From assembly GCA_002729215.1 (NCBI GenBank), contig PBTV01000023.1:4715-44727 (forward strand): DNA of 40,013 bases, given 5' to 3'. Positions 24,556 through 36,012 of the stretch are shown piece after piece (position 1 is the first letter of the stretch; every line of letters begins with the position of its first letter). This DNA is from Rubrivirga sp. Its GTDB lineage: Bacteria; Actinomycetota; Actinomycetes; S36-B12. The notes below the pieces were generated by a model. It ran no database searches and had not been told where the DNA came from. It saw only the letters and a program-made list of their open reading frames with translations. Made by a program: the position numbers and the translations under genes.

Positions 24556-25551
24556 TCACCCCGCCAGTCGTTCCGCGAACTCATCTCGCCATGCGTGCGC
24601 GCTGGTGCGCAAGGAAGTATCAAGAACTAGTTTGCGCCGACTGGAGTCCATCAGATTGGCACCGATAGCCTCCAGGTCCTCTCGCCCGGGACCGAGTGCA
24701 TAGACCCGAGCACCGGATGCGCGCACCAAGGCCAGTTCATCTCGGCACACCTTCGTGACTTGAGCTCGCCATCTGCGCTCGAGTCGCGCGGGAATGCCCG
24801 ATGGCGAATCCATCTCGAAAGACACCATGGGAGCGATGACGTAGACCTCGTCGAGACCAGAGTGGGCAATGACGTCGACCGATGTGGCCGAGACCGCTCC
24901 CCCGTCGACGTACGTGCGTCCACCGATATCTACCGGAGTGAACCATCCGGGGATTGCGCACGATGCCATGACAGCGCTGGAAAGCGGCGCCACGGGAGCT
25001 CCCGATCTGCCGAAGACCACGCGGTGCCCATCGGTGTAGTCCATGGCAACGACCCACAGATTTTGGTGGGAAGACCATTCGCCGAACGGCGTCACCGCGT
25101 CAATCAAGTGACCGACACGATCGAGGGATCGAACGCCCTCCGGCAGGAACGCCGAGAGAACGGTGGTTGCGGGCAGTTGGCCCAGGTGCCGAAGACTCGA
25201 TCGAATGAGCGCCGGTGAGCCAGGCCCTCGCAACCTCGGGACTCCAGGCTTATGTCCACCTGTGGCTCGATCCGGATCCCATTGATACCCGGCGAGAGGC
25301 CCCGTTGTGACCTGCTCGTCCTGGTAGTGGGCAATGAGTTCGTCGGTGCTGGCACCGCAGGCGACCAGTGAGGCAAGTACCGACCCAGCACTGGTTCCCA
25401 CGAGTATGTCAGCGTCTTTGGCGCGCAACCCCGTCGTTTGTTCCCAGGCGGACAAGGCACCGACAGCCCAGGTGCCTCCCAGCACTCCACCACCGCCGAA
25501 CACGATCGCCCGACGAGGAGTGCGCTCAACAGACCGAGATTGCGAGGTCAT
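24556..25551 (-). CDS. Patatin-like phospholipase / lipid acyl hydrolase
   Basis: A 331-residue patatin-domain hydrolase. The oxyanion glycine run GGGGVLGG (19-26), nucleophile Ser54 in GTSAGS and the partner Asp216 in YVDGGAVSA form the Ser-Asp dyad. No signal peptide, so it is probably cytoplasmic. Members cleave acyl groups from phospholipids or triacylglycerol. Its ATG overlaps the stop of the upstream WS/DGAT gene (ATGA), so the two are translated together. A role in turning over the neutral lipid made by that enzyme is a reasonable inference, but no substrate evidence is available in the sequence. Confidence 0.9.
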   Translation of the reverse strand: MTSQSRSVERTPRRAIVFGGGGVLGGTWAVGALSAWEQTTGLRAKDADILVGTSAGSVLASLVACGASTDELIAHYQDEQVTTGPLAGYQWDPDRATGGHKPGVPRLRGPGSPALIRSSLRHLGQLPATTVLSAFLPEGVRSLDRVGHLIDAVTPFGEWSSHQNLWVVAMDYTDGHRVVFGRSGAPVAPLSSAVMASCAIPGWFTPVDIGGRTYVDGGAVSATSVDVIAHSGLDEVYVIAPMVSFEMDSPSGIPARLERRWRAQVTKVCRDELALVRASGARVYALGPGREDLEAIGANLMDSSRRKLVLDTSLRTSAHAWRDEFAERLAG

Positions 25552-27002
25552 ACTGCGTCGGCCCTACCCGGGATGATGCGAAGTCCCGACTCCTTAGACG
25601 CGGCTTCCTTGAGTTCAGACAATGCATCTGCCAGCCCGTCAATGATCACGCTGACGTCGGCAAGAGCATCTCGGTCTGCGGTAAGCCCAACAAACATCGA
25701 CCCCTGATATGAAGTCAAGCCGATACCGAGCGCCTGTCCCTGCACAAGCGGAGAGAACGGGTACGCCGAGATCATTTCGCTTCCGGCCGCATACAAAGGA
25801 CGCTGCGGGCCAGGGACATTGGTGATCGCAACGTTGTAGGCGCGATTGGACAAAGAAGCGCCCACCCGGGCGCCGAGGGCGTGGAGTGTGGGCGGCCCAA
25901 ACCCCGCAATGCCGGCGAGCGCACGGGCGCCCACCAAGCGCTCGGTGTTCCCCAGGTCCCGCATGTGAAAAGCGATCTGGTGAAGTCGCACGATCGGGTC
26001 GGCCTCGCCAACGGGAAGGTCGATCAAGAACGCTCCCACCTGGCTGGCAACGTTCGTTTCTCGCCGGGATGTGCCCTCGGACTGAATACTCACCGGGACC
26101 AGAGCCCTCAGAGTTGCGGACGCATCGAGCACGCGTCCGCGATTCATCAACCACTCACGCAGAGCCCCGGTGACAACGGTCAAGACGACGTCATTCACCG
26201 TTCCCACGCTCGTTCCGTGAACCTCTTGAAGGTCTTCCAGGGAGAGTTCTGTCCTCGCGAATCGGCGTTGAGCGCCGATGCGTGTGTTCAGGGGGCTCTC
26301 AATCGGCGAACGGATCATGGAGACGGCAGACTTGGCTAGACCCACGCTCGTGTCTTTCACCCAGATCGCCACAGCCTCAGCAGCGGCACCAACATCGCGA
26401 ACACCGGTGTTGAGGACATCCCACGCGACCGTCGGACGCGTCAACACACTGGACAGAGCAGATCCGATCAACTCCGGATCCGACGGCTCCGGTCGGGGAT
26501 TCCACACATCCGGGGTGTCGTCGGGGACTTCAGCATGCGAATCGAGCATCACCTGGGTGATATCGATGGCGCCGGTCCCATCCACAAGAACTTGGTGGCT
26601 CTTCGTCACAACGGCGAAGTTCCTGTTCTCCAAACCTTCGATCAGGTACATCTCCCACAGGGGTCGCGACCGGTCGAGCGGACGAGCCATCAGCCGTGCA
26701 ACCAACTCATCCAATTGATCGCGCGTACCCGGATTCGGTAGCGCGGAACGTCGCACGTGGTACGCGACATCGAATGCGGCATCGTCGACCCACACGGGGC
26801 GCGATAGCCCCAACGGCACCTCGCGGATCCGCTGCCGATATCGGGGAACGTGCGCGATGCGATTGCGGATCAGGCGAACAAGTCGCTCGTGATCGAACCC
26901 GCCCTCCGGTGGCCGAAAGATGGCGACTCCGCCAACGTTCCGGGGCGTAGAGGTGTTCTCGGCAAACCACAACGCGCTGTCTGTCGCGTCCAGACGATCC
27001 AC
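25548..27002 (-). CDS. WS/DGAT family acyltransferase with altered active-site motif
   Basis: A 484-residue protein from GTG 27002, which has a GAAGGGG ribosome binding site; GTG 27026 is an alternative. The family esterifies acyl-CoA to fatty alcohols or diacylglycerol, making wax esters or triacylglycerol. Recognisable parts: RLDATDSALWFAE at the start, PLDRSRPLWEMYLIEGL, TVNDVVLTVVTGALREWL, and NVAITNVPGPQRPLY near 390-405. The catalytic HHxxxDG motif reads HQVLVDG: the second His, regarded as the general base, is Gln. The rest of the fold appears complete, so activity may be changed or lost. It is translationally coupled to the patatin gene. Confidence 0.9.
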   Translation of the reverse strand: MDRLDATDSALWFAENTSTPRNVGGVAIFRPPEGGFDHERLVRLIRNRIAHVPRYRQRIREVPLGLSRPVWVDDAAFDVAYHVRRSALPNPGTRDQLDELVARLMARPLDRSRPLWEMYLIEGLENRNFAVVTKSHQVLVDGTGAIDITQVMLDSHAEVPDDTPDVWNPRPEPSDPELIGSALSSVLTRPTVAWDVLNTGVRDVGAAAEAVAIWVKDTSVGLAKSAVSMIRSPIESPLNTRIGAQRRFARTELSLEDLQEVHGTSVGTVNDVVLTVVTGALREWLMNRGRVLDASATLRALVPVSIQSEGTSRRETNVASQVGAFLIDLPVGEADPIVRLHQIAFHMRDLGNTERLVGARALAGIAGFGPPTLHALGARVGASLSNRAYNVAITNVPGPQRPLYAAGSEMISAYPFSPLVQGQALGIGLTSYQGSMFVGLTADRDALADVSVIIDGLADALSELKEAASKESGLRIIPGRADAV

Positions 27003-27233
27003 CCTGACCCCTTCCCAAGTACCCACAAGTGTTACATGCTGGCTCCACGAATGGTGGAAGCATCCACCGATCAGCCAGGGCGGCGTGAGTCAACGAGTAC
27101 ACCCAAGGGACGATCGAAGCATCTGCCGTTGTCGTCGGTGCGGCACGATCGCATGCAGTTGCCCTGCGGATGGAGTCTGGGCCCGGAGCCTGGCTGGTCA
27201 CAGCCATCGATTTTCGCTGAGAACGGTTCAGCG
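27003..27233 (-). other. Gap between secA and the WS/DGAT gene, with a weak hairpin at the secA stop
   Basis: About 225 bases without a gene. CGCTGA (27228-27233 side) pairs with TCAGCG (27215-27220 side) around a seven-base loop, using the secA stop codon itself; it is a weak candidate terminator. A second short hairpin GGCTG/CAGCC lies at 27192-27205. The promoter of the WS/DGAT operon must be here, but no clear -35/-10 pair was seen. Confidence 0.35.
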
Positions 27234-30062
27234 ACGCTTCTTCTTTTTTGAGGTGTTCTTGCGATTGCTCCGCTCTGCGCGGCGCCGCTCAGCACGAGAT
27301 GCGTTCGGGTCCACCTCCACGATGCCGTCCTCGTCAGCGTCCATCTCTCCATGCATGATTCCGCCGGATTCATCGGGCGCGGAGTACTCCATGTGGTCAG
27401 GTCTCGAGGGACCCAACCCTGCAGCCTCGATCGTCGGGCCTTCTTGTGCTTTCTGCGACTGCGTACCTCCAGCAGAAACCGCAGCGGCTATCGCAGCTCC
27501 AGCCTCACTCTCACTCGCGTCGGCCAGCACCTCGATCTGCTCCGCGACTTCCGGCGCGACCTGGGGCTTGACCTCGACCTCGACATTGAAGGCGTAACCG
27601 ACCGTCTCCTCCTTGATGCCATCCATCATGGCGGTGAAGAGGTCGAATCCTTCACGCTGATATTCCACTAGCGGATCACGTTGCGCCATTGCCCTGAGGC
27701 CAATGCCGTCGCGGAGGTAATCCATCTCGTACAAGTGCTCACGCCATTTGCGATCGAGCACGGTCAAAATGACCTTGCGCTCCAATTCCCGGGTGACGTC
27801 TTCCCCTAGTTCTACTTCCCGTCGACCGTAGGCTACTTGCGCGTCAGCGACGAGAGTCTCCGCGAGGAATTCCGAACTGATTCCGGCGCGGCCGCCACCC
27901 GAATCCTCTTCTACCTGCTCTACGGTCACCGACACCGGATACAACTGCTCGAGAGCCGTCCACAGTTGCTCGAAATCCCAATCCTCGGGATAACCCTCGG
28001 CCGTGGCCTGCGAGACGTAACTGTTGACCGTGTCGTCAAGGAAAGAGCGAATCTGGTCTTCGATGTCTTCGCCGTGGAGCACTCTCTTGCGCTCCCCGTA
28101 GATGACCAGACGCTGGCGATTGAGGACGTCGTCGTACTTAAGAACGTCTTTGCGGATTTCGAAGTTCTGCGATTCGACCTGCGACTGGGCGGATCGGATC
28201 GCGTTCGTCACCATCTTGGCTTCGATAGGTACGTCATCAGGGACGTTGAAGCGACGCAGGAAGGAATCGACCATGTCGGCCTTGAACAAGCGCATCAGAT
28301 CGTCTTCCAGCGACAGGTAGAACTGCGACTCACCAGGGTCGCCCTGTCGACCCGAGCGGCCACGCAGCTGGTTGTCGATACGTCGAGATTCATGGCGCTC
28401 GGTGGCCAGAACATAGAGCCCGCCGAGCTCGATCACTTCGTCGTGCTCAGCCTGGACAGCCTCCTGGGCGCTTGCCAACGCCTCGGGCCAGGCTACTTCG
28501 TAGGCATCGGGATCATCGACCGCTGACAAGCCCTCCTGGGCGAGTTGCACAGACGCCATGAAATCGGGGTTCCCGCCAAGCATGATGTCCGTACCACGGC
28601 CCGCCATGTTGGTAGCAACGGTGACCGCGCCCTTTCGGCCAGCTTGAGCCACGATCGCCGCTTCACGCTCGTGGTTCTTGGCGTTCAGGACCTCGTGCGG
28701 AACGCCGTTCTTCTTCAATTCATTGGACAGGTGCTCGGACTTCTCCACGCTGGTTGTTCCGATCAAGACCGGTTGACCCATCGCGTGCCGCTCGACAACG
28801 TCTTCGACGACCGAGTCGAACTTCGCATTCGCCGTTCGGTACACCAGATCTGGCTGGTCTATACGGACCATCGGGCGATTCGTCGGAATGGGGACGACTC
28901 CCAGGTCGTAGATCTGATTGAACTCCGCTGCTTCTGTCATCGCCGTACCGGTCATGCCCGACAACTTGTTGTAGAGGCGGAAGAAGTTCTGCAATGTCAC
29001 GGTGGCAAGAGTCTGATTCTCCGCCTTGATCTCCACACCTTCTTTGGCCTCGATCGCTTGGTGTAGACCCTCGTTGTAGCGACGCCCCTTGAGAATGCGA
29101 CCAGTGTGCTCATCGACGATAACGACTCCGCCATCGAGCAGCACGTAATCACGATCCTTCTTGAACAACTCTTTCGCTCGAATCGCGTTGTTGAGGAAGC
29201 CGACAAGCGGAGTATTGACCGTGTCATAGAGGTTGTCGATACCGAGCTGATCCTCGACTTTGTCGATTGCATTCTCAAGAACGCCGATCGTGCGCTTCTT
29301 CTCGTCGACCTCGTAGTCCTCGTCTAGCTTGAGAGTCTGCACGATGCGGGCAAACTCCGAATACCAGGCGGTCGGTTGATCAGCCGGGCCACTAATGATC
29401 AGCGGCGTTCGGGCCTCGTCGACCAGGATCGAGTCAACCTCGTCAACAACGGCAAAATTGTGGCCTCGCTGGACCATCTCAGCCTGGGACCACGCCATAT
29501 TGTCGCGGAGGTAGTCGAACCCAAACTCGTTGTTGGTCCCATACGTGATGTCCGCGGCATACGCGGCGCGGCGTTGCGTCGGGCTCATCTGGCTGACGAT
29601 GACACCCACTTCTAGGCCCAAGAATCGGTGAATGCGCCCCATCCACTCTGAGTCACGTTCTGCCAGGTAGTCGTTGACCGTCACGACGTGGACCCCGTCC
29701 CTGGACAACGCGTTCAGGTACGACGGGAGGGTGGCAACAAGCGTCTTGCCTTCGCCGGTGCGCATCTCTGCGATGTTGCCGAGATGCAGGGCTGCACCCC
29801 CCATGATCTGAACGTCGTAGTGACGCTGACCCAACGTTCGCTGGGCCGCTTCGCGTACGGTTGCGAACGCCTCGGGCATCAGATCGTCAAGGCTCTCCCC
29901 TTCGGCGTAGCGTGCCTTGAACTCATCGGTGAGCCCGCGTAACTCGTCATCAGACAAAGACGTGTAGTCCTCTTCGATGGAATTGACGGCCTTCGCGATC
30001 GATTCCAACTTCCGAAGGGTCTTGCCTTCTCCCGCGCGCAGGATCTTGTCCAGCACTCCCAC
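27228..30062 (-). CDS. secA: Preprotein translocase ATPase SecA
   Basis: A 944-residue motor that drives unfolded preproteins through SecYEG. It starts at GTG 30062 ([14 protein letters not shown]), set by GGAAGG seven bases before; the frame stays open upstream to 30764 but overlaps the divergent regulator gene and is not coding. Walker A MRTGEGKT (100-107), DEVD (207-210), [37 protein letters not shown] and [17 protein letters not shown] are all intact. The C-terminus ends in a lysine/arginine-rich tail without the CxCxnCH zinc motif, as in SecA1 of mycobacteria. Its neighbours mtrAB-lpqB are the usual actinobacterial context. Confidence 0.97.
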
Positions 30063-30200
30063 GTTGCGACCTTCCCGTACTGCTGCGTTGCCGCGGCCCG
30101 GATTGCGGGCTCTTCCGTCCCGCACTTGCCTGTCATGACTTTGCCGCGTAGGCCGCGGCGCCGTCAGAGCATCGTAGTTGCCACTGGAAGACTGGTCCGC

Positions 30201-30863
30201 ATGGCATCCGTCACACCCGTCACCCTCAGCGATGGGCAGATCCAACTCGATCCCGAACCTGGCGAGGAGGACTCCGTCACCTGGAGCGTCCACCGTGTGG
30301 GCGGCTCTCCCCTCCTGGGGCGGCTGACCCTCCGACAGGAGTCCCCGGCGCCGCACGGAGATCCCTGGTCCCGGGCGCGCCTTCACGTCCAGGTGGAGGC
30401 TCCCGTGGATTCGGCACTCGTGTCGACCTTGTCGATGGCGGTCAGTTTGAGTTGCCAGTGGGCCTTCTCGGCACTGGGAATCTCGGTGATCACCTGGATG
30501 GGGCCACTGGATCCCACACTCCGCTCGATCGTCGATGGAGGGGGTTTTCGGGTTCATTCCCTGCCACACCGAAACGCATGGGACGGCGAGAAGGGACCCC
30601 AGGACGCCTGGTTCGCCGATGCGATCGCCTCCGATGCGCAGCAGCGTGAATTTCGCCCGCTGACCGCCCGAGAGACCAGTGTCTTGACGCTTATCGCTCG
30701 CGGATACACCAACAGTCAGATTGCCCAATCGTTGGGGATTTCTGAAAACACCGTCAAGAATCATGTTCGAGCGATCCTGGATGCGCTCAGGGCCACGTCA
30801 CGAACCGCAGCTCTCGTCGTTGCCCTCCAATCAGGTCTTGTCAGCCTGTCGTCAAAGGAGTGA
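30201..30863 (+). CDS. Degenerate GNAT-like domain fused to a LuxR-type helix-turn-helix
   Basis: A 220-residue protein from ATG 30201. The C-terminal part (about 150-220) is a clear LuxR/Ger[24 protein letters not shown], then [17 protein letters not shown]. There is no receiver domain. Instead residues 5-145 follow the strand order of RimJ-type GNAT acetyltransferases: [64 protein letters not shown] and a closing DAWFADAI. The acetyl-CoA loop (Q/RxxGxG/A) is not recognisable, so it may be a sensor rather than an enzyme. It is divergent from secA and convergent with lpqB. DNA target and signal are unknown. Confidence 0.8.
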
Positions 30864-30952
30864 TCCGCGAACAGCGACCCATTTGCTTGCAGGAATGGAC
30901 CTCGTTGCCGTCGCAACCATCGCCGGTACTCCCTAAAGCGCGTTCAGCGGGT

Positions 30953-32671
30953 TCAGCCCGGATATGCCGGTGACGCGGCATTGACGCGCCCCGACCACGT
31001 TCCTGAAGTGTTGTCGTAGATGACGCCGTCGGCCGCCGCGACCAACGTGGGAAGTCCTGGAGCTGCGGCGAGAGACACGGGCCCTTCCGGCGCACCCTGG
31101 GTGAAAAGCGATCCCCGACCGATGCTGACATCGATAACCTGCAGCGTTCCCACACTCTCACTTCCCAGAACGGCAAGCGAGTCGGCGCTCGACCAAGCAA
31201 CGTCCACTACCTCTACGAGTTTCGACTCTACTCGGATGGGCTCTTGGACCTCGATTCCGACACGGCCGGTGGGTGAGGTTCGGACGATGCGAGCCAGAAG
31301 CAGATCGGTTCGCGGACCGGATTCCACGAGCAGGGCTGCTCGCGTTCCGTCTCGGGAAGGAATCGCTGCCCGTAGGACATCGCCGCTCGCCAGGCCTCCC
31401 ACTTCGATCGGGAAAGAGCGCCCCGTCGGCGAATAGAGGGTCAGATTCCCCGAGAGATCAACAATCCAAAGATCATCAACACCGTCGAACGCTAATCCCA
31501 CAGGTTCTTTGACCGCAGGCAGAGAGAACAGACTCGCTTCCGGCACCAAAGCTCCCGACCACGTTTGACCCTCGACATCGATTCCCGCAATGCGCGCGCC
31601 CAATTCGGCAATCGCGATGTTGGCCAACAGCGGATCCCGGGTACCCGCCTGGCCATCCACGGGACGAGTACCGCCCTCGACAAGTTGTCGGACGCCAATC
31701 GTGGACGCTACGTACGCGGCTGCATCAGCGTCCAGACCCGACGGGTCAACGCTCGGCCAGGCGTCCCTCGACTGAGGGTTCGCAACACCAGGAACAAACA
31801 GCGGCTGGCCCGCAGCGGTCAGGTTGACGGCCTGCACGTCCGGGAGTTGCTTTAGGGTCCAGACCAGTTGCTGCGAGAGCGCCTGGCGCGACGCGTCATC
31901 TGCCAACTGCGCCGATGCATCGAGATCCACCTGGGCAACACCCGCATCGACGAGAACAGCGTCGATATTCAGGTCGACTCCGTCGGGAAAGCCCGTGCGG
32001 ACCGCGGGTCGAAGCCACTCGTTCGGGCCTTCCAGGAGGCGACGCACCAACGTCGTCGCCAGTCCGGGACCAACAACCGGGATCATTCGAGAATCGGGCA
32101 CCAGAATTTCGAACGACGGCTCAAAGAAGTACAGAGAATAAGAACGGAACGCACGATTGACATCTGTCTGCGATAGGACTAAGCCATCGGGCAATTCATC
32201 GATTCGCAACCCCTCATCGGTGCTGATCACACGAAAAGTCGTGGTGAACTCGGCGCCCGGCTCGCCTACCTGATAGCGACCGTCCGGTCCGATAGCTCCT
32301 GCTTGCGCCGCATCAAACTGAACATTCAGTCCCGACTCTGCGAAGACCGGAGCGCCTTCGTACACGACTACCTTCGATGTCGCGTCCCACTGCTCACTCG
32401 CCGGTCGCGTGAGGTATTCGCGCGCAACAGCATGATCGTCAGCAAAAGACGCGCTCGCGTCGAGGAAACCTTGCACAACTTCGATTGCTGTCATGTCTGA
32501 GCGAGGTGGCCGAGCGATGACGCGGATGAACTGATCGACGTTACTTCCCGACACCTGTTCGCCTTGTTGAATCGGACCACTGGTGGGGACCTGAGCAGTG
32601 AAGGCTTGAGGCACGTTTCCGCACGCCGTCACCAGGAGTGACGACACCAGCAAGAACAGGATCTTCTTCAT
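30953..32671 (-). CDS. lpqB: LpqB lipoprotein, MtrAB accessory protein
   Basis: A 572-residue lipoprotein with the signal MKKILFLLVSSLLVTAC; the lipobox LVTAC puts the lipid on Cys17 and the protein on the outer membrane face. It has an N-terminal LpqB domain, a GerMN-like domain (about 190-290) and a C-terminal β-propeller-like part with repeated strands such as DDLWIVDLSGNLTLYSPTG. In mycobacteria LpqB binds the extracellular domain of MtrB and modulates its signalling. Its ATG overlaps the mtrB stop by four bases, making it the last gene of the CPBP-mtrA-mtrB-lpqB operon. Confidence 0.95.
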   Translation of the reverse strand: MKKILFLLVSSLLVTACGNVPQAFTAQVPTSGPIQQGEQVSGSNVDQFIRVIARPPRSDMTAIEVVQGFLDASASFADDHAVAREYLTRPASEQWDATSKVVVYEGAPVFAESGLNVQFDAAQAGAIGPDGRYQVGEPGAEFTTTFRVISTDEGLRIDELPDGLVLSQTDVNRAFRSYSLYFFEPSFEILVPDSRMIPVVGPGLATTLVRRLLEGPNEWLRPAVRTGFPDGVDLNIDAVLVDAGVAQVDLDASAQLADDASRQALSQQLVWTLKQLPDVQAVNLTAAGQPLFVPGVANPQSRDAWPSVDPSGLDADAAAYVASTIGVRQLVEGGTRPVDGQAGTRDPLLANIAIAELGARIAGIDVEGQTWSGALVPEASLFSLPAVKEPVGLAFDGVDDLWIVDLSGNLTLYSPTGRSFPIEVGGLASGDVLRAAIPSRDGTRAALLVESGPRTDLLLARIVRTSPTGRVGIEVQEPIRVESKLVEVVDVAWSSADSLAVLGSESVGTLQVIDVSIGRGSLFTQGAPEGPVSLAAAPGLPTLVAAADGVIYDNTSGTWSGRVNAASPAYPG

Positions 32672-34389
32672 CTGCCCGATCCACCCTCGCCGTCGATAGG
32701 CACCGTGAACGCCAGGGAATCGGCCGAGGGGGGGTCGCTCGGGGCGCTACCCCTGGGGTGATCCGGAGAGTGCTCGCGTGAACCAACTGACTCGTCTCTG
32801 GTCGCATCGGATGACTCCTCGTCATCCGACACCTCATCGGATAAGGGAAGAACGGCGTGCGTTACCGCAGCCCCGGCCACCCGCGGCAGCGTCAGTCGGA
32901 AGCACGCTCCGATGCCTGGCTCACCCCATGCCTCCAGCCACCCACTGTGCAAGTGCGCATCTTCCAATGCGATCGCAAGCCCTAGGCCCGTTCCTCCTGT
33001 TGTCCTTGCTCGGGCCGGATCTGCCCGCCAGAAGCGATTGAAGACCAAGGCGGCTTCGCCTGGACGCAGGCCCACTCCAAAGTCTCGAACGGTGAAACTG
33101 ACGACATCGTCGTCACCAGCAAGCTCGACGAGAACCCCTTTCTCATTTCCGTGTTCGACAGCGTTGTCCACCAGATTGCGAATGATTCTTTCAATGCGAC
33201 GGGCGTCGCACACCACGTTGCACGGTCGCTCATACGAGGCGAAGCGGACTCGAAGGTTGTGACTTTGCGCCAAGGGTTCGGTCCCATCGATGACGTGCTG
33301 CACCAACGTGGCGACGTCGACCGAGTCACTATCGAGTTTCGCTGCACCTGCGTCGAATCGCGAAATCTCCAACAGATCGCCCAGCAACGCCTCGAAGCGA
33401 TCCAGTTGGTTTTGCAGCAATTCAGCGGAGCGAGCTGTCTCCGCTGTCAATGACTGACGTGATTCGAAGAGGACGTCTGCCGCCATCCGAATCGTGGTCA
33501 AAGGGGTGCGCAGCTCGTGGGAAACGTCCGATACGAATCGCTGCTGCACCCGGGAGAGTTCTTCCAATTGAGTGATCTGCGCGTCGATGCTTTCGGCCAT
33601 GGCGTTAAAGGAGCGAGCCAACTGATCGAGGTCATCGTCACGGCGAATGGGCAAACGCTCGTCAAGGTTGCCCGACGACAGCCGCTCAGCGGTCTTAGCC
33701 GCCGCGCGAACCGGCACGACGACTTGCCGCGTCACAATCCACGCGACCACACCAAGGAGCCCAACCAGAACGATTCCCGCAGTCAAGATCGAACTACTGA
33801 CAAGGTCGAGCGTTTGCTGCTCCTGGCTGAGAGGAAATAGGTAATACAGCTCATACGGCCCCACCGTGGGAATGCTCAAGGGGGCTCCAACGACGAATCC
33901 GGGCGAGTTTCGTCCGTCGAGGAAACGGATCTCGGTGAACGTCCACGACTGGCGCCGATCCTGCGTCACCGCGTCGCGAAGTTCGGGCGGAATGCTGGAC
34001 ACAGCAACGAGGTTGGTTCCACGTTCCGGTGCACCAATGTCGGGCAAGGTCGACAACAGCAGCACGTCGAAGGTGGCGGGTGATCCGGCACGGGTGGCCA
34101 GTGACGTCACGACGGTGTCGACCAGGCGCGACGGTGAGGGGGTGGACGGGCCCGTATCCGCCGCGTCCAAAAGACGCTGGGCTTCGCCCAATCCTGCTGA
34201 CGCTTCGCTGACAGCACTTCGCTCCTTGGCTTCCAACAGTCCGGTGGTGACACGCGACAGCAGAAGGAAACCCAGGGCACCGACGACAGTGATCGAGAGA
34301 ACCAGGGTCAAACTCGCGACACGGATAAACAACGACCGACGCCACAGACGCCGGACGGCTCGAGGTAAGAAAAGAAGAACCCGTCCCAT
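32668..34389 (-). CDS. mtrB: MtrB sensor histidine kinase
   Basis: A 573-residue membrane kinase. A transmembrane helix at about 22-46 and another at about 199-220 flank an extracellular domain of about 150 residues; a HAMP linker (VPVRAAAKTAERLSSGNLDERL) follows. The phosphoacceptor His291 lies in SHELRTP, and the ATPase domain has RIIRNLVDNAVEHG (N box), FTVRDFGVGL (G1) and GGTGLGLAIA (G2). A proline/aspartate-rich tail ends it. ATG 34389 is preferred over TTG 34395; no ribosome binding site is evident and coupling to mtrA seems likely. It phosphorylates MtrA to control cell-wall and division genes. Confidence 0.96.
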   Translation of the reverse strand: MGRVLLFLPRAVRRLWRRSLFIRVASLTLVLSITVVGALGFLLLSRVTTGLLEAKERSAVSEASAGLGEAQRLLDAADTGPSTPSPSRLVDTVVTSLATRAGSPATFDVLLLSTLPDIGAPERGTNLVAVSSIPPELRDAVTQDRRQSWTFTEIRFLDGRNSPGFVVGAPLSIPTVGPYELYYLFPLSQEQQTLDLVSSSILTAGIVLVGLLGVVAWIVTRQVVVPVRAAAKTAERLSSGNLDERLPIRRDDDLDQLARSFNAMAESIDAQITQLEELSRVQQRFVSDVSHELRTPLTTIRMAADVLFESRQSLTAETARSAELLQNQLDRFEALLGDLLEISRFDAGAAKLDSDSVDVATLVQHVIDGTEPLAQSHNLRVRFASYERPCNVVCDARRIERIIRNLVDNAVEHGNEKGVLVELAGDDDVVSFTVRDFGVGLRPGEAALVFNRFWRADPARARTTGGTGLGLAIALEDAHLHSGWLEAWGEPGIGACFRLTLPRVAGAAVTHAVLPLSDEVSDDEESSDATRDESVGSREHSPDHPRGSAPSDPPSADSLAFTVPIDGEGGSGR

Positions 34390-34396
34390 GATCAAG

Positions 34397-35110
34397 TCAG
34401 GAGGGACCGGCCTTGTATCCGACTCCCCGCACGGTGAGCACGATCTCGGGGGCTTCGGGGTCGCGCTCGATCTTGGCCCGCAGGCGCTGGACGTGCACGT
34501 TGACCAATCGTGTGTCGGCCGCGTGCCGGTAGCCCCACACTTCCTGGAGTAGAGCCTCCCGAGTAAACACTTGGCCTGGCCGCTTCGCGAGGCAGGCGAG
34601 AAGGTCGAACTCCAGCGGCGTCAGAGCCAGGACCTCACTACCCCGCCGCACCGTATGACCACCGATATCGATCGACAATTCACTAATCGTGAGGACTTGG
34701 GATCCGACGTCATCTGTGCGACGAATGCGAGCCCGGATGCGAGCGACGAGTTCTTTCGGCTTGAAGGGCTTGACGATGTAGTCGTCGGCCCCGGACTCCA
34801 GCCCTACGACGACGTCGATGGTGTCCGACTTTGCCGTCAGCATGACGATCGGTGTGCCCGATTCGGCACGAATTGAACGGCAGACGTCTATTCCATCTCG
34901 CCCCGGCAGCATGAGGTCAAGCAGGACGACATCGGGCTTCGACGCTCGGAAGGCGTCAACGGCGGCGTTGCCGTCGGCGCAGAAAACGGGATCGAACCCT
35001 TCGCCGCGCAGGACGATGCCCAGCATCTCAGCGAGGGCAGCGTCGTCGTCGACAACGAGAACGCGCCCACGCGCCCTGGGGGCGCTCAGGCCGCCGGGCT
35101 TCTCCGTCAT
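34397..35110 (-). CDS. mtrA: MtrA response regulator (OmpR/PhoB type)
   Basis: A 237-residue regulator. Receiver domain: acidic pocket Asp21-Asp23, phosphoacceptor Asp65 in LLDLMLPGRDG and Lys114 in YIVKPFKPKELVARI. C-terminal winged helix: EVLALTPLEFDLLACLAKRPGQVFTREALL, WGYRHAADTRLVNVHVQRLR and VRGVGYKAG. These match MtrA, essential in M. tuberculosis, where it controls division, peptidoglycan hydrolases and replication-linked genes. It starts four bases after the CPBP stop and is followed directly by mtrB. Confidence 0.96.
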   Translation of the reverse strand: MTEKPGGLSAPRARGRVLVVDDDAALAEMLGIVLRGEGFDPVFCADGNAAVDAFRASKPDVVLLDLMLPGRDGIDVCRSIRAESGTPIVMLTAKSDTIDVVVGLESGADDYIVKPFKPKELVARIRARIRRTDDVGSQVLTISELSIDIGGHTVRRGSEVLALTPLEFDLLACLAKRPGQVFTREALLQEVWGYRHAADTRLVNVHVQRLRAKIERDPEAPEIVLTVRGVGYKAGPS

Positions 35111-35114
35111 AGCC

Positions 35115-35945
35115 CTATGGTGTCACCTCGGGAACCCCAAGGAGCACAACGAGGGCAGCCGGGGTGTTATTCACCCCGTGGGCAACCATGGAGGCCCCTA
35201 AAGACCCCGTCTTCCACCGCACCCATCCGTAGACGACTCCAATAGGCAAAAGGAGGAAGAATCGGACCGGTTCGAAGTGGAAAGCGGAGAACGCGACCGT
35301 GGTGATCGCGATCGTCCACACGGCTCCGACGCCACGTTTGCGCAGCGAGTTGTAGAGCATCCCGCGGAAGGCGAGCTCCTCGACGATCGGCGCCCCCACC
35401 ATCACCATGATGGCGAATACCAGCAACGCCCAAAAAGGCCCCGCTTCTCGCAACTCCCCAGCAATCTCACCGGCGGCTGAGGAGAAATCTCCGGCGATGG
35501 CCTGGGTGATGACAGCGACGATGCCGGCCAAGATCAATCCCACGACACCGGCGGCCACTCCCCAACCGACATCGCTCCAGGTCAGGCGAATGCCGAGATC
35601 GATGCGCGGTCCGTTGCCCCGAAGGCGGGTGACGAGCAGCGGCCAGCCGGCAAGGCCGATCCAGGGCACCACCGTCCCCACCAAGGCGGTAATGGGCAGC
35701 GGCGCATCTAACAGCAACAGAGGAATCGCCGCCGCCAACCCGAGAACAATCGCGGCAACGATGGACACGACCGCTGAACCAATCCCCCACTGCGGGGTGC
35801 GCAGAACCTCACCGCGCGACATGGCCTCCGCGACCGTCGCTGGGCACCCGGGATAAGAACCTGGACCGTCTGGGCGAGCCTCCACAGATGCGTCGTTTGG
35901 TCCGCCGTTTGGTCCGTCAGTCGATCCGTCGTTCACTGGACTCAT
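35115..35945 (-). CDS. CPBP (CAAX-like) intramembrane metalloprotease
   Basis: A 276-residue protein with a hydrophilic start and about seven or eight transmembrane segments. The ABI/CPBP active-site motifs are present: EELAFRGMLYNSLRKR (EExxxR), FSAFHFEP (FxxxH) and MVAHGVNNTPAA (HxxxN). Such proteins cleave or bind prenylated or other membrane proteins and peptides; the substrate is unknown. ATG 35945 is taken, with GTG 35948 as an alternative. The gene ends four bases before mtrA, so it is probably the first gene of the mtrAB-lpqB transcript and might process an envelope protein under the same control (inference). Confidence 0.9.
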   Translation of the reverse strand: MSPVNDGSTDGPNGGPNDASVEARPDGPGSYPGCPATVAEAMSRGEVLRTPQWGIGSAVVSIVAAIVLGLAAAIPLLLLDAPLPITALVGTVVPWIGLAGWPLLVTRLRGNGPRIDLGIRLTWSDVGWGVAAGVVGLILAGIVAVITQAIAGDFSSAAGEIAGELREAGPFWALLVFAIMVMVGAPIVEELAFRGMLYNSLRKRGVGAVWTIAITTVAFSAFHFEPVRFFLLLPIGVVYGWVRWKTGSLGASMVAHGVNNTPAALVVLLGVPEVTP

Positions 35946-36012
35946 CACGAACCTATTGTGCGGGTCGCCCCCGACATTGCCGACGCTGCGTCCGACGTGA
36001 GATCAGCGAACG

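Follow-up and report, generated by a model that had tools for sequence, protein, structure and literature searches.

The gene divergent from secA in the stretch of DNA analysed here (40,013 nucleotides, hereafter the window) encodes a protein in which a LuxR/GerE helix-turn-helix (HTH) follows the remnant of a GNAT acetyltransferase (Table 1). The reading that we favour, with a probability of about 60%, is that this protein is a one-component regulator assembled from two neighbours of secA, in which a GNAT half devoid of its CoA motifs has been retained for a structural or binding role, and which acts at the promoter region of secA and of its own gene. The ancestral parts would have been a stand-alone RimJ-like GNAT gene and the DNA-binding domain of a secA-linked NarL-type response regulator.

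Table 1. Features of the regulator gene and of its neighbourhood in the window.
Feature	Position	Strand	Remarks
secA, divergent neighbour	27228..30062	-	Pfam SecA_DEAD, E 1.4e-129
putative secA -10 box TACGAT	30171..30176	-	kept upstream of secA with or without regulator
putative regulator -10 box AAGACT	30188..30193	+	7 nt before ATG, leaderless type
GNAT-remnant/LuxR-HTH regulator gene	30201..30863	+	220 aa
degenerate GNAT domain, residues 1-150	30201..30650	+	beta strands, alpha3/alpha4 kept; alpha1-alpha2, CoA motifs gone
LuxR/GerE helix-turn-helix, residues 153-208	30657..30824	+	PF00196, E 7.7e-18
lpqB, convergent neighbour	30953..32671	-	Pfam
mtrB-like sensor kinase	32668..34395	-	Pfam
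mtrA-like response regulator	34397..35110	-	Pfam

The reading frame of the regulator is uninterrupted up to its stop codon, and Pfam matches to the neighbouring genes bear out the position given by the first-pass annotation, divergent from secA and between secA and the mtrAB-lpqB genes. Its 3′ end faces that of lpqB across 89 bp (30864-30952). This interval had been proposed as a footprinting target, a proposal that we do not retain: it lies between two 3′ ends and offers no obvious promoter region for either gene. In most other members of the genus, comF is located between the regulator and lpqB, in the orientation of the former (L113-L116, L118 and L120); no comF was detected at 30864-30952 in the window, nor in L117.

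The C-terminal end is the LuxR/GerE DNA-binding domain that had been recognised from the sequence, with a GerE score (64.3 bits) well above the gathering cut-off of 23.5. As initially described, there is no receiver, PAS or autoinducer-binding domain, and also no GNAT domain, among the 25 Pfam families listed for the protein at E ≤ 10, and no family was listed for residues 1-150 even at this threshold. The domain expected of a quorum-sensing LuxR protein is thus missing from this list, and a profile of the receiver, the domain that bears the acidic pair and the phospho-Asp in response regulators, gave zero matches to the ORF. The best NCBIfam row, a MadR-family response regulator, was dropped because its score (51 bits for a cut-off of 300) came from the HTH only; a literature search on MadR returned Enterococcus MadRS and unrelated work only.

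The N-terminal half could be identified by comparison with its relatives. A profile built on intact sister GNATs matches residues 78-148 (E 5.6e-11), corresponding to the C-terminal half only of the GNAT profile, which stand-alone GNATs encoded beside secA match over their full length. In the alignment with intact sisters, about 45 residues carrying α1-α2, the region that shapes the acceptor side in GNATs, are missing from the window protein. The acetyl-CoA motif of GNATs is R/Q-x-x-G-x-G/A. The corresponding loop is of the R-G-x-G type in the intact relatives, with the arginine present in 21/21 intact sister proteins and R-x-x-G in 18/21, versus V-D-S-A-L-V in the window protein, and the motif is retained in none of the eight members of the genus; these loops were compared by eye (L030, outside the search pattern, being read separately), and the alignment places that of the window genus with gaps. 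A G-N pair that is invariant in 11 intact proteins is likewise replaced by G-P-L-D. The loss of the acetyl-CoA loop, announced as apparent by the first-pass annotation, is therefore confirmed and extends to a second motif. The protein does not reach the gathering score of the Pfam GNAT families (PF13302/PF00583), which the intact sisters do match. Judging from the loss of α1-α2 and of both motifs, the GNAT half in the window genus has most likely ceased to be an acetyltransferase.

Structure prediction, proposed earlier as a check, also places this half with the RimJ-type GNATs. The AlphaFold2 model (mean pLDDT 85.7) has the succession β-β-β-β-α-β-α-β-β, with strands at residues 14-19, 25-32, 38-46, 58-65, 96-102, 123-129 and 132-142 and helices at residues 71-91 and 105-113, i.e., a predicted GNAT core (β1-α1-α2-β2-β3-β4-α3-β5-α4-β6-β7) minus α1-α2; the folding alignment included intact GNAT relatives, so that the model is not independent of homology and may have been drawn to this fold. 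The best VIA-align match is to 2fck (Z 14.6, 133 residues, rmsd 2.6), and the predicted N-terminal fold also resembles that of RimJ/RimL-type GNATs (PF13302) such as M. smegmatis RimJ (6c30/6c37; for 6c30, Z 14.5 over 142 residues, rmsd 2.3); Foldseek matches to RimJ/RimL enzymes are around 1e-6. Unlike these enzymes, the window protein has no α1-α2, R-x-x-G loop, G-N motif or Pfam GNAT match, and carries an HTH. The model of an intact sister protein (pLDDT 89.1) contains the missing helices and matches GNATs at about 1e-12. The structure alignment does not include L032, whose sequence has N's.

The same two-domain architecture, with the same synteny with secA, exists in relatives, as the first-pass annotation had suggested searching for. 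Among 195 related genomes, the nearest relatives are full-length proteins of the window genus (g1), with 46-91% identity, and the next best are proteins of 250-270 aa from sister genera of the same family (f1), composed of an intact GNAT and the same HTH. Intact Acetyltransf_3 (PF13302, E 9e-22 to 7e-26) and GerE domains are present in 8/8 sister proteins scanned, whose genes have the same place and orientation at secA as the window gene. A profile of the intact form (E ≤ 1e-40) detected the fusion in 30 of the 85 f1 genomes (28 full length and two partial, G078 and G045) and in none of the 81 other genomes of the order. Outside f1, no fusion spanning both domains was found among the matches listed for 396 genomes of the phylum, nor any fusion among those listed for a class sample of 394 genomes, in which few candidates were scored per genome at E ≤ 1e-40 and weaker fusions could be missed. 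One contig titled as a Bifidobacterium breve MAG (CAMCSO010000001.1, L036) carries the f1 GNAT-LuxR/secA locus and looks mislabelled.

The scan of contigs beyond f1 returned NarL-type response regulators, most of them with secA a few kb downstream. We scanned 100 secA-upstream regions with HTH, GNAT and receiver profiles. Families outside the order often encode an intact receiver-HTH protein there, in the order comF-hpf-regulator-(AlkZ-like)-secA, where AlkZ-like is the name that we presume for the gene accompanying the stand-alone GNAT. Receivers that have lost key residues occur in families f3, f4 and f7 and in the f1 genera g8 and g11; the GNAT-LuxR fusion is present in g5, g6, g9, g12, g13 and g14, and its degenerate form in g1; g2, g3, g4, g7 and g10 have no regulator at secA. 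At this position, f7 and a number of other families of the class, including a genus whose genomes measure 6-11 Mb, have a stand-alone GNAT pointing away from secA. Twelve of the 19 phylum-wide loci found by their GNAT match (L211-L230 minus L225, the window's own) have secA in their short flanks and seven do not, nine of the 12, or more, being from one genus. Tandem or multiple GNATs were also observed beside secA in other actinobacteria (L044, L074, L205, L206 and L338).

In the GNAT tree, built on 72 rows, the 21 fused GNATs make up a single clade (94/92), whose sister group consists of five stand-alone GNATs from the f1 genera g7 and g8 (99/97). Together with four further class-level rows, all originating from secA-bearing loci, they belong to a clade of 30 rows (96/91). 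The fused GNATs were likewise nested among secA-linked ones in a first, quick tree, which still contained three long GNAT rows of the 'other' category that were dropped from the 72-row tree. The closest stand-alone GNATs of g8 and g7 have no secA within 6-9 kb and an AlkZ-like gene alongside; the AlkZ-like gene thus accompanies the stand-alone GNAT both by secA, in several actinobacteria, and away from it, in g7 and g8 (L188, L189, L191, L199 and L328-L332). The stand-alone GNAT genes pointing away from secA in other Actinomycetota share position and orientation with the window gene and encode the nearest GNAT relatives of its product, but have no HTH.

The HTH points to the other neighbour. 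For 17/17 HTHs of the fused and window-genus proteins, the best score to secA-linked regulators is 173-209, versus 125-149 to 22 other LuxR HTHs; the HTH tree itself is poorly resolved, with 67 columns, long branches and non-secA rows among the fused ones (one-clade test, p-AU 0.109). The secA-linked NarL/LuxR-type response regulator has the closest HTH and the same neighbourhood as the window gene, but it includes a receiver and has the opposite orientation relative to secA. The accessible part of a study on Streptomyces describes a transcription-factor cluster within the mtrA-mtrB-secA synteny (PMC13118837), and the factor in question may be this regulator. As far as that part goes, this transcription factor near mtrA-mtrB-secA is all that the literature searched yields on a GNAT-LuxR fusion or a secA-linked regulator.

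In the SecA tree (38 rows), g1 and all of the fusion genera share a clade of 22 rows (98) that excludes g8, g11, g7 and f4; the genera nearest g1 are g10, g2 and g4, all without a regulator at secA. The simplest history compatible with these trees would be a single fusion, later lost in g2, g3, g4 and g10, with decay of the GNAT in g1. Since g2, g3, g4 and g10 do without a regulator at secA, the latter is dispensable. The receivers suggest an earlier step: within the order, the acidic pair is kept in 0/27 secA-linked receivers and the phospho-Asp in 13/27, versus 15/15 outside the order for the acidic pair, phospho-Asp, Thr/Ser and Lys (counts from 9 of the 67 loci L044-L110 and from the secA-upstream regions, L194 and L184 being doubtful). 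Receiver decay thus seems to have preceded the HTH-GNAT fusion, itself followed by decay of the GNAT in g1. Because they have lost phosphorylation residues, the secA-linked regulators found throughout the order (L150-L164, L174-L181, L188-L194 and L210) are candidate phosphorylation-independent regulators.

This succession of decays, with receivers without acidic pair throughout the order and then a worn GNAT in g1, and the lack of any regulator in the three genera nearest g1, would fit a relic nearing loss, whose HTH is left with an eroded input domain and little function. We consider this improbable. The frame is open in all eight genus members with the whole gene (among the ten g1 genomes, the contig of G008 ends before the gene and G001 covers residues 1-116 only), and the spacing of the promoters is constant in all eight. 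Furthermore, dN/dS of residues 1-150 is 0.19-0.21 in all six pairs of four g1 genomes (four of the eight; L005, with N's, and L007-L009, too diverged, were left out), indicating that selection still acts on the protein sequence of the eroded GNAT half.

In the reading that we favour, the dead GNAT half would be a folded and selected scaffold for dimerisation or for binding of a partner or ligand, setting the binding of the HTH to DNA. The first-pass annotation went further and saw in it a dead acetyltransferase used as a ligand or protein sensor, which could link secretion to MtrAB envelope signalling. A true sensor, in which binding of the remnant to a protein, or to a ligand resembling CoA or the acceptor, controls DNA binding, is a possibility to which we give less weight. 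The remnant retains the β core, α3, α4 and the GNAT strands of the C-terminal end, all under purifying selection, and conversion of an enzyme into a sensor has a precedent in ROK repressors such as NagC/Mlc, where an enzyme fold is reused with an HTH; but both CoA motifs and α1-α2, on the acceptor side, are gone. BirA is another enzyme with an HTH. Like the window protein, NagC/Mlc and BirA combine an enzyme domain with an HTH, but their folds are unrelated to it and sensing is proven for them only. GNATs also occur in multidomain signalling proteins, such as PatA with its cyclic-nucleotide domain and AAPatA, described in the accessible part of PMC8007912 as GNAT enzymes with regulatory domains. 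There, the additional domain controls the enzyme, whereas the partner of the enzyme domain in the window protein is one that binds DNA. Further GNAT architectures are presented in the accessible parts of PMC8007912 and PMC11254643.

A box A[CG]ACT located 6-7 nt before the start codon is typical of leaderless transcripts in actinobacteria. The arrangement A[CG]ACT-N6-7-in-frame ATG/GTG is found in 26/27 fused loci, versus a mean of 0.075 in shuffled sequences, these loci being related and not independent. The ATG at 30201 is thus the likely start of the regulator, and this spacing makes the upstream starts TTG 30126 and ATG 30135 less likely. No consensus sigma-70 promoter or intrinsic terminator was found in 30000-31100. 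On the secA side, TACGAT would most simply be the -10 box of secA. A conserved CATCGTAG motif, which is TACGAT when read towards secA, was considered as the operator of the regulator and rejected: TACGAT is also present upstream of secA at loci without regulator (e.g., L121, L129, L137, L182 and L195), and as a general secA promoter it is no evidence of an operator.

In 8/8 genus members, 11 nt separate the two predicted -10 boxes, which face opposite ways on the two strands. This region, between secA and the regulator, is the likely site of action, where binding or transcription on one promoter side would affect the other; two polymerases could hardly use both boxes at once, so that autoregulation would probably affect secA as well. 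The regulator might instead control other genes (its own, comF or a distant regulon), its adjacency to secA being only inherited synteny, a reading to which we give no more weight than to that of a true sensor. The order of the locus is ancient, and in other members of the genus comF follows the regulator with the same orientation; against this, the predicted promoter of the g1 regulator overlaps that of secA, so that autoregulation would touch secA. As for the linkage to secA, it is old and extends over the whole phylum, and thus does not in itself suggest that the dead domain has any particular role.

A broader scenario, which we put forward as speculative, is that of an old secA/translation regulator at the Actinomycetota secA locus, whose HTH was kept and whose input passed from receiver to dead receiver, then to acetyltransferase and finally to dead acetyltransferase. 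With the intact fusions, the output of secA would be set directly by acetyl-CoA or by acetylation, and the window form would represent a subsequent state, independent of acetyl-CoA. The intact GNAT-HTH form is a potential acetyl-CoA-responsive regulator, open to testing.

The locus provides, within one order, an ordered series in which a receiver was lost, the enzyme of a neighbouring gene gained and the active-site motifs of this enzyme lost in turn. It exemplifies how the sensing half of bacterial regulators may be altered or eroded, the DNA-binding one being retained, and raises a testable question: do DNA-binding domains persist for the sake of their target, with inputs that can be exchanged? 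Furthermore, it provides a candidate for the regulation of secA in uncultured actinobacteria, in which, to our knowledge, the control of this gene has been little studied.

Other genes of the window include one for a wax ester synthase/diacylglycerol acyltransferase downstream of secA (25548-27026, minus strand) and one for an Rce1-like CAAX protease adjoining mtrA (35115-35948, minus strand), both recognised by Pfam. A second Acetyltransf_3 match is located at about 1575-1856 of the window, on the minus strand (G000 C4:6289-6570), and the genome sequence from which the window comes has three Acetyltransf_3 and two GerE matches in total.
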